A stretch of 64,000 nucleotides of DNA. It comes from Candidatus Absconditabacterales bacterium. Lineage in GTDB: Bacteria; Patescibacteriota; Gracilibacteria; Absconditabacterales; Absconditicoccaceae. The notes beneath the pieces were generated by a model, which saw nothing but the letters and a program-made list of their open reading frames with translations, was not told the DNA's origin and ran no database searches. Positions 7,774 through 18,510 of the stretch are shown in pieces. Location: the NCBI GenBank assembly GCA_025057375.1, contig JANWWO010000002.1:62001-126000 (forward strand), given 5' to 3'. Positions within the stretch are counted from its first letter, which is position 1; the number at the start of each line of letters is the position of its first letter. Position numbers and translations under genes: made by a program.

Positions 7774-10700
7774 TTAGTTAGTATTGTGGGACAATAGCCC
7801 GGGGACAGAAGAAGGAGTGGTGTTTGTGTTGCCTACTGGGGGGAGAGCATATGTTTCGTGCTTGGTCACCAGATGCCATTCATGATACAAAGCAAAGTTT
7901 GCTGGATCAGAAAAATCATACTGACTTATGTCTGCGATCTGTTTATCAATATTGGCTCTTGCATATGCAATCTCGTCAGGGGATTTTTTTCACTCTGCAA
8001 TGTCTTTTTTGAGATTTTTGATCGCTGATTTGAGTTGAGATGTTTGGTTCATAAACTGATTGAGATTGCCTTCATACACCTTGTTTCCTGGTCATCATGA
8101 TGCGATTTTTTTGTAATCATCAATCACTGTCTTGAAATGATCGATGAATGCTTGCTTTTCTGGTTTGCGTGTGCCATCAGCTTCTGACACATCTGCTTCC
8201 AAAATGGTGATCATCATCTGTAGTCATTTTGCCGTATTTTTTTTTGCATTGCTCAAAAACTTCTGTAATGCTTCAATGAGCTGCATAAGAATAGTACGTG
8301 AATCTTTTGGTCATTCAATATGCGACAAGGTGTCCATATAATCATCAATTCTTTTTGCGATTTTGAGTTTACTTGTTTTGTCTGGATTGATATCTTTGGC
8401 TAGATCAGCGACAATGAGATCGGTGACATATTTTTTGTATCCATCAGGTGAAAGAAAAGGCACATCGACGCCATTGATGTTCATCATGTGTTGTTTGCTT
8501 ATATCAACTTCAAATCACCCTTTCCCATCTTCCACAAAAATTTCTCTATTCACGCTCATAGAAGTTCCATCTTGATATGTCACTTTGGCATCGTACTCGA
8601 CTCTTATCGTCCCATTATTGATCATAGTGAGTATCTGTGCTTTGGTGTCTGGATTTTTCAAGGCATCTGCATCAAGCTCAAAAAGTACTGTATTTGCATC
8701 AAATTTACTGGTAATTTTTACCTTCCCATCAAGATTCATTGATCATGCTATAAGTTTGGAAATGATTTTGAACATTGCTCCATTTTCTCATTTTCCATCT
8801 TGTTTCACTGCCCAATCCAAATCTCAGGGTACTTTTTGATCTTTGGAAAACGCAAAGCTTGTTTTATTGACCACATCTTGTGGATTGATGCCAGCATCGA
8901 TAAAGAGTTTCATATCATCTACTGCACTTGCTTTGTAGGTCTCAATCGTGCGTTGTTTGAGTGATTTATCAGTAAACTCTGTTTTTCTTATATCTGTTTT
9001 ATCTTTGGTATTTTTCATTATCCATTCTCACTGTTCATTTTTGACGAGATAGTATGATTTCCCGTCTTGATAGTGGATGTATTCGTGATGTCCGTCTTTG
9101 AGCGGAAGTTGTGCTTTATCTGGAGAAAGTTTGGTATTAATATTGTTTTGAAATTTAAGACGCTGTGAGTCTTGGCGTGATGAGAGGGTAGTGAGTGTAT
9201 CATTAAATCGTTTGGTTATGTGTTCGAGAATGTGTTTGGTATGGGGGAATTGTGTGTGGATTTCCAGGAGTGTTGTTTTGATCTTGCTTAATTGCTCTTT
9301 TGTGGGATTGATAAGGCAGTCTTTCATCAGAGAAAAAAGCTCACTGACGTGTTTGTTTGGTCAGGTTTGTACTTCAAGTGCAGTTTGTGCTTTGGTAAGG
9401 TGTGTGTCAATGGTTTTGGCTTGTGCGTCTGACAATGTCATTGATTGTGATGATTGGTTTACATCTTCATTGACTCACGTCTTGTCTGATTGTGTCTGTG
9501 CTGCTTTTCATCATTCCTTTCATCAATCAGTTTTTTGTTTTCCTTCTAGTAGTTTGTTTTTTGCATCTTGTAGTATTTGTTTTTCTGCATCCAATCGTTT
9601 TGTATCTGCGTGTCCATTTTGTTTGGCCCCTTCCGCATCAATTTGTTGTTGAATTCTCTTAAGTTCTTTATCAATTTGTCAGATCAGGTGTTTTTTCTGT
9701 CTATCAATATCTCATAGTTTTCCTTTCAGTGTGGGGATGTCATTGAGTTTCATTGCTGCCATAATTCCCATCAAGGGTCACATTTCGCTGATCATTGCTT
9801 CAAGAGATACTGTTTGTCCTGTCAGCATTTTTTGCCTTTGTTGTTCGACGTAGAGACCGAGTGGCATTTCCATGCCCAAATCACGTCCTGTTTCTGCCAT
9901 TCGTTTGGCGTATTCTTTGTTCATGGTGATGCCCTTGGCGAGATCGTCTGCTTGTGCAAGTATTTTTTGGGATGCAGATCATCATTTGAGAAGATTTTTG
10001 GTTCCTTGACCAAATTTTGCAAATCATGCACTTACTCACTTCCCAATTCCCAAGGTTAGCATCGTCACTCCAGCATCAGCAAGAATTGTTGATCCTGCTT
10101 CCATCCCAAAGTCAGTAATATCCTCAAATCATCTTCCTCTTGCCATTTCATACGCAAGTCAGGCACTTGATCAAGCGAGTGAAGAAATCAACGCACTTCG
10201 TGCAGCAGCCGCTACTCAGGTTCATGCACCGAGAGTTTTGAGAGCAAGAAGAGTCGCCACCATTGCAACGACCATTCATCCACCCATGTCAGCGTATCAC
10301 AAGTTTTTGTGATATTGTGCATCAGATACATCAAACCATCATCCTGTCCCATGCATATCCACAAAGGCTTCATACATCTCTTTGTTCAGTCATTGCAATC
10401 AGGCAGACGACCTTGCTCCCAATGTGTCAGCAAATTGTTGCATCATTTTATCACGAGATTCTGCCATAATTGTTTGCATCATGGTCATATAGTTTTGTAC
10501 TCATTGTTCTGGACCGTGTGCATCAATCATCGTTTGGAGCGATAGGTTTCTTTCTTTGATTGTATGTAAACCATCAAGCAAGGCACGATGTTCAAGGGAG
10601 AGCTGAGAATATTTTTGTGTAAGAGTTTTGTTATACTCTTTACCAAACATCTGCGTTAGTATTGTTTCTTGGACATCAGCGTCTGGCTGTGTGCTCTCAG

Positions 10701-12969
10701 TAAAACCAAGCAGAGAAAAAATATGCTCTGACTTATTGGACGACGTTTCCCATTGTTCTTGTCATTTTCCTTGAGGTAGTTTGTCTTGCATAATCTCTTG
10801 TGCTTTGCCTCACTCAATCATCAATCGATGCATTGTCTTTTGTGCATGCTCAAGATTTTTGAAATCGTTGTGGACATTAATTTCTCATCTATCTCTCATC
10901 ATTTGAACCAAACGAAAGAGCTGGTCAGTGTATGTTTTTTTGTTTCATGCATTCTCCGGATTGAGTATCTCTCATTTGATATGTTCTGTAATTTTTGCAC
11001 CCAACGCATGGATATAGGAGACTGCTTTTTTAAATGAGTCTGATTGACTGAAATTCATCGCAATTGCAAGCATTTTGTTTTTATATAGGTCCACCATTTG
11101 TGTGGGAGACTTTCCATATAATTCTGAATCAATGTTTGCAATTGCATAGTCGAGACGACGATCTGCTTCTCATTCAGCCAGAGCTCCTTCCAGTGTGTCA
11201 GCATCCTTCATCGTTTCGTTTCCTGTTCCTGATATGATTGCCACAAAATCACGATTGAGGGCGTGATATTGCGTCAGAAATGTATTTTTTTCTTTTTGAG
11301 TTGATACCTGTTCAATCTGTGTTTTACAATAGGCAAGGAGTTCGGTGATCAAAAATTCTGTTTTTCTCATTGCCATTTTTTGGGTATTATCAATCCCACC
11401 AAATGCTCCACTTTCATTTGTATACAGTGTTTTCATTTGGTTGGTCAGTGTTGCAATCGGTCATCAGGATGCAAGGAGCTGTGTGAGTGGTTGTTGTTTG
11501 TATGTAGTAAGCTCGGTGTGTCGGTTGTTATTTCCTGATTCTCTGTGTGCTTTGGTCCATGCGATATCAAATTGCTGATTCATCCATGCGACGAGCTTGT
11601 CATTGTTTCAAGATTTTTCGAGTGTTTGTTTGAGGAGTTTTTTTTGGTCCGGAGAGAGTTGGTTTGCTTTTTCGTTGTTGGGATTGAGAAAATCAAAGAC
11701 GTTGATATCGTCCATGGAACCAGTGATATCAAATTCGAGAATATGATCTCCTCCTCGAGCATCGTGAAACGGATTGGCTGATCACGGAGTTGCTCACGAA
11801 GTTTTGAGTTGTTTGATGATGTTTTGGATTTCGCTTTGAATTCGTGATTCCATCACTTCTTTCATCCATTTTTCAGGTCGTATAATATCAAGTGTTTCTT
11901 TTTGTGTTTCTTGCCCTTGTTTGATTTCTTTGCCAGTGATGACGTTTTTTTTTGTTTGTTGGACTTGCTCGATTTTGGCAACATTTGATCATCATTCTGG
12001 ATTGGCTCTTTTGTGACTGATTGTGTCCCAGAGTTTGAGCATGTGTTCATGTGCTCGTTGGAGGAACTGATCTTCTTGACTTGCAAATTTATTTCGTCAG
12101 CCAGTAAATTTTTCATATAGAGATGTCCCTAGTGCATCTTGTGTCAAAAAAGGAATATTTTGTGCGGATCCATCAGATCAAATATATTCAACATCCAGTA
12201 AAACTCATGATCATATTGTTCGGTTTTTGCTGAGTGTTTCTCATATTGGTTTGGTTGCGTTGGTATTGATGAGAAATGATTCAAGTTCTTGCATTCTTAT
12301 ACTCATCACTTGTGCTAATTGTGTCATCTCTTCATTGCTCAATTTTGTCTTCAAGCTGCGATTGAGGCTTGCAAGATCAAGCGATGCATAACGGGCAGTT
12401 AGTGATTCTTGTGCTATTGTTTTTTTTTTGAGGGTTTCACTCGGTGTTGATGACGATTGTTTGTCTGTTGGTGCTCTCGGTGTTGTTTTAATGTTTTGTT
12501 GTTGTGTGAGGAGTGTGTTAATTTTTGCGATTAGTCACTCATGTGGTTTATTGAGTGAATCGTCAAGTTTTTTGGTGACGATCGAGATAATCTCTCATTC
12601 AGAGAGTTCGTTGGTTCATCGTAATTTTCCTTTGGTCTCAAAGATTGATTGTGTATGTGGGTCAGTAAGCTTTTTGATTTCATTGGTGAGCTCTGTGATT
12701 GTTTGTTCTAGTGAATTCCGTGCTTGATGGAGTCAGGTGACACGTCCATCCAGACTCTGACCTATGTGTCCAAATGTTTTGGGATCGTATCAGAGTTTTT
12801 TGAGTTGTGTTGCTATTTTTTGTTCTGCATGTCATGCGATTTGTGTTGCTTGTGCGACAATTTCTTGTGCATCTGATCAAAGATTTCGGTCATCGTCAAA
12901 ATTCTCTAACTCATTTCTGAGTGATTGTTGGTCAAGTTGGAGATCGGTATGTTTCAGTAGTTCAGTCAT
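7774..12969 (-). CDS. Giant 1731-residue hypothetical protein
   Basis: One frame of 5.2 kb with no TAA or TAG. I checked every triplet outside the stretches that are open in all readings. The N-terminal half is helical and Gln/Lys/Glu-rich (coiled-coil-like), with a small Ser/Thr/Pro region near residue 165. Around residues 880-990 there is a Gly/Ala-rich hydrophobic stretch (VATLLALKTLGAG; LADAGVTMLTLGIGKG) that could be membrane-active. A long charged helical region follows and then a C-terminal domain with beta segments (VKITSKFDANTVLFELDADA). No family was recognised. The preceding 112-residue gene ends 34 nt upstream in the same frame. Confidence 0.85.
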
Positions 12970-13341: not shown

Positions 13342-13490
13342 AGATTGGGAGATTTATTAAAAGACTTTTTGGTGATCAGTAGAAAAAACATGCAGACGAT
13401 CTGCATCATAAGTATACGATTTTTTATTCAAAAAAAAAATCCCCACCGGAGATATAAAGGCATGGTCTTGACAAATAGTTTTTTTTGGTG

Positions 13491-13970
13491 TTAGAAAAAC
13501 TTATAGATCATTTTTATTGGTCATTTGTCATCATCGTTAGTCCTTATCCATCACAGTGATTGATACAATCCGATTGCTTTACTATTTGATGCTTTGACGG
13601 TGAGGTGGAGTGTCTTGATGGGTATGTGGTTGCGTGCGTAATCCATTGCTGTTTGCAAGAGTTTTTTGCCTCGTCATTGTCTTTGATAATCTGGATGCAC
13701 AAACAATCCAAAGATTATTCATTGTGAGTAATCTTTGATCTCATTGGTTTTGAGCCATGGAGTGATATGGACTTTGCCTCGACATTGTCCGTTTTCGTCA
13801 CAGAGGAAAAAGAAATGTTTGTCAGTCATGATTTTTTGTCGTTTGGAGTCTGGATAGCGATGAGGACTGGGTCAGGGGAAAAGGTCTGGATAGAGTTCAT
13901 GCATCATGATCCTGATTGCTTGAAGATACGGTCGGTCGTCATGCGTTCCTTTTATGATTGTCAATGGCAT
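13491..13970 (-). CDS. GNAT-family N-acetyltransferase
   Basis: A 159-residue protein. The acetyl-CoA-binding motif A is visible as IFGLFVHPDYQRQGRGKKLL, the usual V-x-P-x-x-Q/R-x-x-G-x-G/A pattern with one Gly encoded by TGA. It is followed by AMDYARNHIPIKTLHLTV and the motif B segment NSKAIGLYQSLGW. The family transfers acetyl groups to amines; the substrate cannot be told. The start is placed at the ATG following the TTTTTTATTTG leader, because the upstream in-frame sequence does not look like protein. Confidence 0.88.
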
Positions 13971-14046: not shown

Positions 14047-15816
14047 TTATTTTTTGGGATTTTGTTCGAGTATCTTCTTGGTAATGTTGGTAATGGGATG
14101 ATGTTTGTATGGTCACCAAAACTTTCTTTGATCTTTATTGGCATTATGCATATCATCAAAGGTTTTTTTGCGCAATCACACTTTTTTGAGTATTCTGTCT
14201 CGGATTGCTTCTATCCTTGAGGGATATTTTTTGGTTCATTCCTGGTCTTGGATATCTTGAATGATGCGTCTTGGGAGAAAGGTTGTTGTGAAAATATCGT
14301 CATCATTGATTCACAATTCTTTTTTGATTGCCTCTGTATGAGGAATATCTTTGGGTCAGAGTTTTGCGAAGTTGATCGTATGAAGGAGTTTGTATGCTTC
14401 TTTGATATTTGTGCATTTATTAAACATTGCCGCCACATCTCTGAGTCACCTCGTATACAGGCAGTCTTTTGTACTTGCTCAGGGACGATCGTAGGGAACA
14501 AATCTTTTCCTTCTTGTAACTATATTATGTGCTTCTTCTTCTGGAGTTTTGGTTTTTTTGGTCTGTCATTCTGGTTTTCTTGTGAGTTTATTATAGATTG
14601 TTATAATTTTTACTGCTTCGTCATAGTTACATTGTTCGCAGATAAATGTCGCAAGCATGCCAATCGAGGGTTTCTCCGTGATTGATGGAATATCTGCCAA
14701 TGTTTTGACTTTCCCTTTGACGATCGCTTCAAAGAGTTTGGCAAGTCATTCTTCCAATCATAGGTATCATGCTCCTTTCCGTCCTTTTACAAAAAAATGG
14801 TTTGCATTGTATCAGGATGTTGCATGTTTCCCAATTTCATGCTGATAATTGACCAAGGCACTTTCCAATGAAATTGTTTTTGCATCATCGGGGAGATAGA
14901 TTTTCTCTTTTTCTGAACAAACTGTGACATTTTTTTGGATTTTATCAAGCTCAATCTTTCGTGGTTTCATGGTTCTTTGTGGTTTGGTGTTTATCGGATC
15001 TGACCGTTCTGTCTGCTGTAATATTTCAAATAATTCTTGTTGTTTTTGCCTTGTGATGGTTTTGAGAAGTATAGATTCTGACGCATTATCAGATTTTTCT
15101 TCCTCATCAGAGTCAGTGGTACTTTTTTTCTTTTGTGTGAGTGAATATTTTTGACAACAGGCATCGAGAAATCATTGAAAAAGTGTTTTTTCTTCCTCAG
15201 TGAGCCTGTTTCCGTTTTTGTTGAAATATAAAACCATTTTATCAACGCATTGCTGACTTTCTTCTTTGTTTGACGATACAGATGGTCAAAACGCTGTCCA
15301 CAGTTTGTCTTGTGTATTTTTGATGATATTCTCTCTCTCTGCTGGATCAATGCTATATCATCATTTTTCTGCCTCTATATAGACGCTATAGCTCAGCATA
15401 GTCATATTTTCTTGGATTTCTTCACAGCGGTTGAGAAAAAGTTGTTTTGTGTATGGGGGGAGAGGTGATTTTTTGAGAGAGTCAATATGCACTGTAAGTG
15501 TATTTTGTGCGATTTTAAGGTTTGTGAGAAAAGTATCGATATGTTCTTGTGTGATTGGTCACTTTTTGACATCAGGAAAGAATTGTTGTGCGATTTTGTA
15601 GTTGCCATCAATAATATAGGTGATTTCTCATCATATGAGAGAGGCATACGAGTCATTGATTTTTTCTAGATCATCAATGATGGGTTTGATATCTCATTTG
15701 AGCGTTTCGTAGAGTTTTTTTTGTGTTTTGTTTACTTCCGAAGAAAAAAGCCTAGAAAAAGGCTTGGTCACAAAATTTTTTGTTTTTTCCCGAAGATTGT
15801 TGAGCATAAAGAGCAT
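14047..15816 (-). CDS. DUF1704 / MATCAP-like zinc metallopeptidase
   Basis: A 589-residue protein. Residues near 340 carry ALVNYQHEIGKHATSGYNA, the HExxxH zinc-binding motif of the DUF1704 family. About 20 residues later comes GRKGAGYLGLEEGLAKLFE, matching the EEGLA (QEGLA) signature that names the family. Relatives include eukaryotic tubulin carboxypeptidases of the MATCAP type; bacterial members are uncharacterised. The N-terminal 250 residues are helical and charged. The two conserved motifs are direct observation; the peptidase activity is inferred from the family. Confidence 0.8.
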
Positions 15817-15874: not shown

Positions 15875-16867
15875 TTATTCAAATCTTAATTGTAAAATAT
15901 CTTTTGCACAATTTCTTGCTATTCATGTATGAGGGAAATGATGCATTCTTAATCATGGAGTAGAATTGACTTCAATAATTTTTCCATTGGTTTCTTGTAG
16001 TGGTTTTGTTATGTCTACAGAAATAATATCAATACCTGCTATACATATTCATAATTTTTTTGTTATATCAAGAGCCATTTGTTTGGTTGATGGGTGAACG
16101 ATATCTGTTACATCAAAAGAAATTCATCATGTTGATAGATTTGCATTTTGTCTTAACAAAACTTCTTCATTGACACGAGGAATGGAAGAGATGGTGTATC
16201 ATTGTTTTTCTAAAAATGATATCATTGTAGTGTCGATTTTAATTTTTGTTAGGGGTTTATCATGTCACTCTCACCTCATGGGATTATGGTTTTCTTGATT
16301 AATCAGTTCGTGTATTGTATGTTGCCCATCTCCAATAATATATGGAGGTTTTCTCATCGCAATAGCAGATATTTTATCTCATACAACAAGGATTCTATAG
16401 TCGTTTCATGAAATATATTCTTGTATAATTACTTTTGTACTATATTCAAATGCATAAGCAATTGCCTGTTCCAAATCTTTATAGCTTGATATTCCTATTG
16501 AGATACCTATTCAGTGTGATTTATCTGCTGGTTTTACTACAAGAGGAAACATTTTTGGAAGAGGCCACGTTTTTGATGTTAATCATGACGATATAGATTC
16601 ACTTTTTGTTATGATGGTTGATTGTGGGAATGGATAATCTTTTAGGATGATTTGTGTGAGTTCTTTGTCTTGACATAATTTCATGCTGAGTGCAGTATTG
16701 AGTCAACAATCTATATTTTTCCACAAATATGTTTTTCATTTTCCTGTTATTAAAAAAAGATTTCTTTTCGAATTGATTTTTTCAATAAAGTATCATAGAG
16801 AATGTGCTTCTTTCATAATTAATAATGATGACATAGACCATCATTCATTATGTAATGTATCAAACAT
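15875..16867 (-). CDS. ATP-grasp ligase, cyanophycin synthetase/glutathione synthase-like
   Basis: A 330-residue protein. Motifs in order are FPLVVKPADKSHGIGISIG (ATP-binding lysine and glycine loop), YISGNDYRILVVGDK, QNANLSTGG (substrate-loop motif seen in cyanophycin synthetase and GshAB), GIDIISVDITKPL and KIIEVNSTPGLRMHHFP (metal-binding Glu and Asn). The family joins an acyl-phosphate to an amine using ATP. Its start overlaps the stop of the upstream ATP-grasp gene as TAATG, so translation is probably coupled. The natural substrate is unknown. Confidence 0.87.
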
Positions 16868-17808
16868 TAAGTTGTGAGAAATAAAATAGCAAGATCTTTG
16901 AAATATTGTATTTGATAGGATCTATCTTCTATAGGGAATCGTATTCAGGGAAATGGGTTGAGCTCCAAAATATATCGTCTTTCGTCATTGTGACAATATG
17001 CAAAATCGATAGAGTAAATATCATGTGGTTGTACAGATATGCGTTTTTGAACCTCTGTTGCTATAGTAAACAATTCTAGTGGAACATCTTTTTCTCACAC
17101 ACTATATTGCGTTCATCATTGTGCAATATTTGATTTGAGTGATCATTGTTGTGGCTTTCTTATAATGCAAAAAGAAAATTTTGTTCCAATAAAAACCAAT
17201 CTTATATCATGGTTGCCTGATATAATATTTTGATATCATTGTGAGAAATCTTTGAATGATTGAACGATAAAAAAATTTCTATATTCATACCATTTATGTT
17301 TTTCTTCTAATAAAATATTTAACTCTGAAAAATGTATTCATTTTCATCAATTCCCAATAGTAGGTTTAATTACAACTTTGTTTCATAATAAATGATGGTT
17401 ATTGAAAGATGACGAAAGTACTTCTGATAGCAAGTATGTTGGTGGTTGTAAATCTCAAATAAATAAGGATGTTTCGTATTTATTTGATGTGATTGTTATG
17501 GTTTCAAGCGATGATATGGTTGGAAAAGAATTAGCAATATGGCGGATATATCATAATCATAGTTTTGATTTGACATAGAGTATGTCGGGCTTATATGGTT
17601 CTTCGATCACAACAAAATCTCATTTATTTGTATAATCAACGTATTGAGAAAATGTCTTTGTGTGTGAATCATAGTGATGATACGAGACTGTTACCAAATG
17701 CATTCATTGTTGTAAAAAAATATTATAAAGAACAAATCCTGCATTTTGGTATATTGACTTCCTATGATATGTTTCTTTAAATCATGTAATGATAGCTACT
17801 TTTTTCAT
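16867..17808 (-). CDS. ATP-grasp ligase, glutathione synthetase/RimK-like
   Basis: A 313-residue protein, beginning MKKVAIITGFKETYHR. The N-terminal pre-ATP-grasp domain includes DFVVIEEPYKPDILYVKSK. The ATP-grasp core has KVVIKPTIGNGGKGIHF (Lys and Gly-rich loop), FFIVQSFKDF, GNHDIRLVFIG and YSIDFAYCHND followed by YILELNPFPGIRFP (metal-binding Asp, Glu, Asn). It forms a two-gene unit with the overlapping downstream ATP-grasp gene. Such pairs make small peptides or peptide-like compounds in other bacteria; that role here is inference. Confidence 0.85.
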
Positions 17809-17835: not shown

Positions 17836-18468
17836 TTATTTCCTCCACTCCACCACTTCCTCCTGTCCAAATCTCACTTTGGGGAGCGTAGCATATTTGT
17901 CATCGCTTGCTCTGTAACCAATCGGTATTACAACACTCGCTGTCCACGGATGCTCGAGTCCCAAAATCCTGTTGTATTCTGCAGGTATAAATCCTTCCAT
18001 TGGACAGCTATCAATTTTCATCATCGCACACGCCATCAGCAAAAATCATTGAGCGATATAGACTTGTTTGTGAGCTCGTGTGGCTTTGGTTTGTGAGTCA
18101 ATCGCGTTGTTTCGCTCCATCATCATATCAACATAGCCTTGGATGTGGTCCCTAGTTACGCCACGAGCCTGGCAGATCCTATCAGCAAAATGATTGATAT
18201 CGCGTGGTCCACACTCAGTATTGGCACACAAAACGAGAAGATGCGAACAATCTACGACTTGGCGTTGGTTTCGTGAGTGAGGAAGGAGATCATTTTTAAG
18301 TTTGTTGTTCGTGATCACAAGCAATTTCCATGGTTGGAGCCCAAATGAGGATGGGGTCAGACGAAATACTTCTAGCAATGTGTGGATATCAGTGTCAGAA
18401 ACGATGCGTGTTGGATCAAAGACTTTGGTTGCGTAGCGTCGATTGAGGGAATCGATAAGTGGTGTCAT
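17836..18468 (-). CDS. Nitroreductase-family FMN oxidoreductase
   Basis: A 210-residue protein. The N-terminal LNRRYATKVFD matches the FMN-binding RRSxRxF-type start of the family, followed by FRLTPSSFGLQPWKLLVI. The C-terminal part has GFIPAEYNRILGL and VIPIGYRASDD-type segments typical of NfsB-like enzymes. Members reduce nitro compounds or quinones with NAD(P)H. The start is set at MTPLIDSLNRRYA after a T-rich leader; the in-frame extension upstream is poly-Phe/Leu from the leader itself. A terminator separates it from the gene before. Confidence 0.9.
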
Positions 18469-18483
18469 GAGCAACAAAAAAAA

Positions 18484-18510
18484 GATAAAAAAGATCACTG
18501 ACGATCTTCA
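18484..18510 (-). terminator. Rho-independent terminator
   Basis: AAGATC/GATCTT with a 6-nt loop precedes TTTTTTATC on the minus strand. It ends the unit containing the secreted protein at 18520-19314; its T run then serves as the leader of the nitroreductase gene. Confidence 0.6.

Follow-up and report, generated by a model that had tools for sequence, protein, structure and literature searches.

We analysed a 64,000-nucleotide stretch of DNA (the window) from a genome of 1.13 Mb in which UGA encodes glycine. Read with translation table 11, the coding strand of the region described here contains no ORF of 80 amino acids or more; read with table 25 (UGA=Gly), it contains two full-length ORFs, both on the minus strand, each with 16 in-frame TGA codons read as glycine. 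The first, P0002 (16867..17808, minus strand; 313 amino acids), encodes a divergent LysX/ArgX/RimK-like ATP-grasp ligase, as judged from profile matches and an AlphaFold model. The second, P0001 (15875..16867, minus strand; 330 amino acids), encodes a standalone ATP-grasp ligase of the CphA1 type without a Mur-ligase domain, as judged from profiles, active-site mapping and a phylogenetic tree. A preliminary description, made from the sequence alone, had placed two different ATP-grasp ligases at 15875-17808; these coordinates are right, and both genes are intact under table 25 and match ATP-grasp profiles. The TAATG stop/start overlap it reported (16865..16869, minus strand) is also there and amounts to one shared base, 16867, from which we infer translational coupling of the two genes.

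The pair is followed on the same strand by ORF3 (14047..15816; ATG at 15816 or alternatively at 15807), 58 nt downstream of P0001, which encodes a metallopeptidase of the MATCAP/TMCP (DUF1704/QEGLA) type with a long helical N-terminal part, recognized by its motifs and by profile-profile comparison. Profile search identified a GNAT acetyltransferase gene 76 nt further downstream (13491..13970, minus strand), possibly the last gene of the operon, its membership being uncertain; a terminator-like hairpin lies 3' of it (13439..13453, minus strand), and sites of this kind occur about as often as expected by chance. On the other side, a nitroreductase-family gene (17836..18498, minus strand; profile search and gene maps) ends 27 nt upstream of P0002 and is possibly the first gene of the transcript; its adjacency to the ligase pair is not conserved in the gene maps of relatives. 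Positions 7774-12969 of the window, also on the minus strand, encode a 1731-amino-acid protein.

We compared P0001 with characterized ATP-grasp enzymes. Its profile matches are to cyanophycin synthetase (TIGR02068, 2e-94), GshAB (4e-70), the N-acetylglutaminylglutamine synthetase Ngg (TIGR03103, 3.5e-48) and RimK (PF08443, 2e-12), and its matches in the PDB are CphA1 structures, with 43% identity over the aligned part. P0001 covers only positions 158-471 of the 862 of TIGR02068, i.e. the ATP-grasp part, and contains both the QNANLSTGG and the IIEVNSTPGLRMH motifs. With the active-site residues of TeCphA1 as defined in PMC9427784 taken as reference, P0001 keeps 11 of 11 mapped catalytic and aspartate-pocket residues of the CphA1 ATP-grasp/G domain (K220, K261, H267, R309, R323, N394, S396, D431, E450, G456 and R458). 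In TeCphA1, R458 binds the alpha-carboxylate of the incoming aspartate and E215 makes contact with the side chain of arginine in the cyanophycin acceptor (PMC9427784); the position of E215 is occupied by Lys63 in P0001. All 15 members of the core of the P0001 clade (P0001 and 14 close standalone relatives) have Lys at position 215 and His at position 267. Two annotated CphA1 proteins also have no Glu at 215 (Asn in Chryseobacterium, Thr in Sphingobium). Position 267, His118 in P0001, is Tyr or Phe in GshAB and Gln in Ngg.

Since GshAB shares R323, N394 and S396, R458 alone is left to indicate an acidic substrate. Arg is found at this position in P0001 and its homologues at two other loci (L145 and L154), with Gly, Ala or Ser in most other members of the clade and Ile in one, suggesting that the amino acid added varies among them. 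P0001, thus, looks able to extend an acceptor that is not cyanophycin with aspartate or a comparable acidic residue, and its relatives probably add other residues.

A maximum-likelihood tree built from 33 sequences placed P0001 in one clade with 16 standalone proteins from the class (support 100/97), and grouping P0001 with CphA1 or with GshAB was rejected (p-AU 3.9e-12 and 0.010, respectively). P0001 has no N-terminal GshA domain, and a profile search of the window genome for PF18921 (Cyanophycin_syn) found none. The preliminary description saw here the two activities of cyanophycin synthetase or GshAB split between two proteins. This idea fails, as P0001 is the ATP-grasp module only, P0002 is homologous to neither of the missing halves (the Mur-ligase and GshA domains), and the trees reject both groupings. 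Nor did either ligase prove to belong to a known family, D-Ala-D-Ala ligase for example, the outcome that had been named as a refutation: P0001 groups with CphA1/GshAB-type enzymes, scores 46 bits on the Ddl model TIGR01205 (cut-off 246) and has a CphA1-like substrate pocket. The pair is neither a split cyanophycin synthetase, nor GshAB, nor a D-Ala ligase; its kin are the RimK/RimB, RloABC and tubulin tyrosine ligase/MATCAP systems. Standalone proteins that score best as 'cyanophycin synthetase' in these genomes are probably something else.

P0002 matched MptN (1e-12), the RimK family (2e-8) and GSH-S_ATP (2.7e-6), of which GSH-S_ATP alone was above its cut-off, and just over it, the other two being far under; for the RimK family, P0002 missed both TIGR00768 (34 bits, cut-off 143) and PF08443 (18.7 bits, cut-off 21). 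Its AlphaFold model (pLDDT 81, pTM 0.80) found ArgX as the best PDB fold (3vpb, E=7e-13), then LysX, RimK and Ddl, and also glutathione synthetase; as modelled, P0002 has the ATP-grasp fold of the RimK/LysX/Ddl/GshB type. K110, K148, N227, GG231-232, D268, E282 and N284 are invariant in the P0002 family, and the ATP/Mg ligands are invariant in the families of both ligases. In its own tree, P0002 is sister (96/93) to a clade whose genes lie beside those for glutaminase, M32 carboxypeptidase and glutamate synthase and, by sequence reading, glutamine synthetase and glutamate dehydrogenase. Because relatives of P0002 adjoin these glutamate-metabolism and M32 carboxypeptidase genes, its substrate would appear to be glutamate. 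One such locus (L034, 4470-10644 of G025:C16), with the order glutaminase, M32 carboxypeptidase, P0002 homologue (opposite strand) and glutamate synthase, represents a second context for P0002-type ligases. At the locus of a further P0002 homologue (L036, 7848-9299 of G008:C41), a 483-amino-acid protein without a Pfam or NCBIfam match is encoded beside that homologue; its HG...SCWSG motifs resemble those of clan CD cysteine peptidases.

ORF3 carries the motifs HEIGKH, LEEGLA, RRKRF and KDCLYTRG. The combination of HExxxH and EEG is the signature of the tubulin metallocarboxypeptidases, TMCP/MATCAP (PMC10499314), and is present in 32 of 36 ORF3-type homologues and in 27 of 28 homologues fused to another domain. 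Taken alone, the window ORF3 matched PF08014 below the cut-off of 27 (19.2 bits, E=6.7e-4); two close homologues exceeded it (29.5 and 29.2 bits), and fused MATCAP domains of relatives gave 62 and 195 bits on the same Pfam model. When the ORF3 family was compared with the fused MATCAP domains profile to profile, the probability was 99.9% (E=8e-37); ATP-grasp controls reached 0.3%. An AlphaFold model of ORF3, built from 3 sequences, had low confidence (pLDDT 48), so that the fold assignment rests on the profile comparison and the motifs; ORF3 is a predicted carboxypeptidase-type enzyme of the MATCAP/TMCP family.

To see how these genes are arranged elsewhere, we surveyed 242 genomes of the class, counting strong matches lying within 5 kb of each other in genomes that hold both genes. 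P0001- and ORF3-type genes were neighbours at 10 of 11 loci in such genomes (binomial p=7e-19), P0002 and ORF3 types at 6 of 11 (p=1e-9), and P0001 and P0002 types at 6 of 6, in all 6 genomes with both (p=3e-12), where about 1% is expected at random and shared ancestry is ignored. The three types of gene, thus, occur together far more often than chance, and the preliminary description was right to treat the two ligases as a unit to be sought in related genomes. Gene order is the same in G018 and G197 and reversed in G193, and in several f14 genomes ligase and peptidase are convergent; this variation in order and orientation between families makes repeated re-association more likely than one frozen block. 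Recurrence of the same parts across related bacteria suggests a previously unassembled system for adding and removing amino acids.

The preliminary description mentioned neither the adjacent MATCAP-type gene nor the larger operon of relatives. In Absconditabacterales (SR1) relatives, operons additionally encode an RloB-type 7TM protein (PF14402) and a fusion protein in which an RloC-type ATP-grasp (TIGR02291, 8e-49) is joined to a MATCAP/QEGLA domain. Multi-ATP-grasp operons with the fusion, ORF3 and RloB were found at five loci (L035, L146, L148, L149 and L179). Their order is fusion-P0002-P0001-ORF3-RloB in L035 (G018), fusion-P0001-P0001'-RimK-like-ORF3-RloB in L146 (G196), fusion-P0002-ORF3-RloB with ORF3 on the opposite strand in L148 (G178), and fusion-P0002-ATP-grasp_4-ATP-grasp_3-RimK-ORF3-RloB, with five ATP-grasps, in L149 (G175); a further locus, L145 (G193), reads MATCAP-P0001-P0002. 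The P0001 homologue of L035 (8376-9345 of G018:C39) is frameshifted inside an otherwise intact operon, and may be dispensable there or reflect an assembly error.

In many families of the class without recoding, RloB and the fusion occur alone (L161-L164, L166, L200 and L201), and RloB is present in 19 of the 28 fusion loci, some of which lie on contigs that end early. Possibly, the RloC-MATCAP fusion and RloB are the core of the system and the genes of the window its accessories. The window genome has its own RloC-MATCAP fusion (779 amino acids, with the motif HELDVH), unlinked to the ligase pair on contig 16 (G000:C16). A search of this genome for RloB (PF14402) gave no match, 14 controls being equally silent, and searches of plasmids with the fusion returned separate RloC or QEGLA matches only.

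In the reactions of CphA1, LysX/ArgX and RimK, a carboxylate on the acceptor (the C-terminal one in the case of CphA1 and RimK) is activated and an amino acid then attached to it; MATCAP enzymes cleave off residues at the C-terminus. The simplest reading, and the one we favour with moderate confidence, is a module for non-ribosomal extension and removal of peptides, in which ligases in turn lengthen an acceptor at its C-terminus and a carboxypeptidase-type enzyme trims it. P0002 and P0001 would work one after the other as carboxylate-amine ligases. The acceptor would be a small peptide or the tail of a protein, whose C-terminal carboxylate each ligase would convert to an acylphosphate and couple to one amino acid. 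For P0002 this amino acid would probably be glutamate or a relative, for P0001 probably aspartate or another acidic residue like it. ORF3 would act on the product of the ligases, removing or trimming the added residues much as RimB reverses the work of RimK, and MATCAP that of tubulin tyrosine ligase. The fusion, the further ATP-grasps and the RloB-type membrane protein of relatives suggest a link to the cell envelope or to export. Counting against this reading are the convergent ligase and peptidase genes of the f14 genomes and the unlinked fusion of the window genome.

Precedents for such ligase/protease pairs are RimK/RimB (PMC11957791) and RloABC (PMC12239564). In the former, which polyglutamylates ribosomal protein S6, the ATP-grasp adds amino acids to a C-terminus, a retropepsin-like protease removes them, and the genes are either separate or fused, all of which resembles the proposed module; here, however, the ligases number at least two and differ in type, and the place of the aspartic protease is taken by a metalloenzyme of the MATCAP type. 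With the RloABC operon of Pseudomonas the operons of relatives share an RloC-type ATP-grasp (TIGR02291) and an RloB-type 7TM protein, but the RloC-type ligase carries a fused MATCAP domain, extra ATP-grasps are present, no RloA-like retropepsin-like protease was noticed in the gene maps, and the window has the accessory ligases and peptidase only. The tubulin tyrosine ligase/MATCAP (TMCP) cycle of eukaryotes (PMC10499314) likewise combines a writer of ATP-grasp fold with an HExxxH and EEG carboxypeptidase as eraser; the window system differs in being bacterial, in its ATP-grasp subfamilies and in having no known tubulin target. We think unlikely a bolder version, in which a cellular protein carries a defined amino-acid series, written at its C-terminus by several ATP-grasp ligases and erased by carboxypeptidases of the MATCAP type; it would be a prokaryotic counterpart of, and perhaps the source for, the tubulin tyrosination/detyrosination cycle.

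Among single enzymes, P0001 equals the ATP-grasp module of CphA1 (PMC9427784), including the aspartate pocket, but lacks the Mur-ligase domain, has Lys in place of E215 and belongs to a separate clade. It is also homologous to the ATP-grasp modules of GshAB and Ngg, from which it differs in residues 267 and 458, in the absence of a GshA or GNAT domain and, again, in its clade. The closest solved fold to P0002 is that of the LysW glutamate/aminoadipate ligases LysX/ArgX, whose ligation chemistry is of the Glu type; P0002, however, has only about 15% identity to them, falls under the family cut-offs and has no noticed LysW-type carrier protein.

A narrower form of the extension and removal module, which we hold possible rather than probable, is that both ligases make a free small peptide (an osmolyte, storage or redox compound, likened to N-acetylglutaminylglutamine amide or glutathione), recycled by the peptidase, with no protein being modified. 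N-acetylglutaminylglutamine (NAGGN) is synthesized by a GNAT and ATP-grasp system with its own peptidase. The kinship of P0001 to Ngg, seen in the profile match and the tree, and the glutamate-metabolism genes beside P0002 relatives keep this small-metabolite reading strong, and GNAT genes lie near or inside some loci; furthermore, the RloABC operon affects osmotic tolerance (PMC12239564). However, the window GNAT is, by sequence comparison, not orthologous to the GNATs of the G033 and G014 operons, which themselves come from a single genus; the gene maps show no NAGGN amidotransferase, and at positions 396 and 458 P0001 does not have the His and Ala of Ngg. A candidate for the peptidase of a NAGGN 'trio', an M42 peptidase near P0001 in G001, was rejected as a general aminopeptidase (192 bits on the lysyl aminopeptidase model, versus 47 bits of 398 on the NAGGN model).

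It is improbable that the ligases build or edit cell-wall or envelope peptides, for instance in place of a missing D-Ala-D-Ala ligase. RloB and RloC do act in envelope phenotypes (PMC12239564), and the window genome (L222-L226) has Mur ligases (4 matches) without a canonical Ddl, its sole match to PF07478 being P0001. Yet many members of the family have neither Ddl nor P0001 (e.g. the single-contig genomes G005, G009 and G026), G001 and G048 have both, and the low Ddl score, CphA1/GshAB-type grouping and CphA1-like pocket of P0001 argue in the same direction. Replacement of Ddl by P0001 was rejected, as the presence of Ddl in relatives does not track P0001. Ddl itself is patchy across the family of the window genome.

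Some graspetide clusters pair two ATP-grasps, and the ligases might accordingly cyclise a ribosomal precursor. We consider such a RiPP cluster very improbable: the preliminary description saw no precursor peptide gene nearby, and we likewise noticed no precursor-like small ORF in the window operon or in related ones; the two ligases are of CphA and LysX/RimK type and matched no graspetide model in Pfam or NCBIfam; and their partner is an HExxxH carboxypeptidase-type enzyme, with no leader-peptidase or ABC transporter gene in the maps. Least credible of all is the idea that P0001, as a cyanophycin synthetase in degenerate or split form, makes a storage polymer of Asp and Arg. CphA is the best database match of P0001 and the aspartate pocket is intact, but neither P0001 nor an adjacent gene supplies a Mur-ligase domain for Arg addition, Lys replaces E215 in P0001 and its 14 close relatives, the tree rejects a clade with CphA1 (p-AU 4e-12), and there is no cyanophycinase or isoaspartyl peptidase neighbour, unlike in plasmid cphA loci.

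Ligase/protease pairs such as RimK/RimB are already known. What is added by the extension and removal module is that, in the Candidate Phyla Radiation, both gene order and domain fusion tie the MATCAP family, the eukaryotic eraser of C-terminal residues of tubulin, to ATP-grasp ligases. Iyer et al. 2009 reportedly surveyed ATP-grasp/peptidase neighbourhoods and would be the likeliest place of an earlier prediction. The open literature, a scope outside which that survey fell, yielded no link of MATCAP/DUF1704 with bacterial ATP-grasps, and priority is uncertain. Should the activities be confirmed, the system would offer a bacterial context in which the tubulin writer/eraser pair could have originated, together with a peptide pathway of several ligases working in order, in organisms whose genomes measure ~1 Mb. 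That genomes of this size keep up to five ligases in one operon needs explanation. The operon in question (L149, 226-10559 of G175:C59), whose five ATP-grasp genes belong to different Pfam families and which also encodes two MATCAP-type domains and a membrane protein of the RloB type, is a candidate multi-step peptide assembly line.
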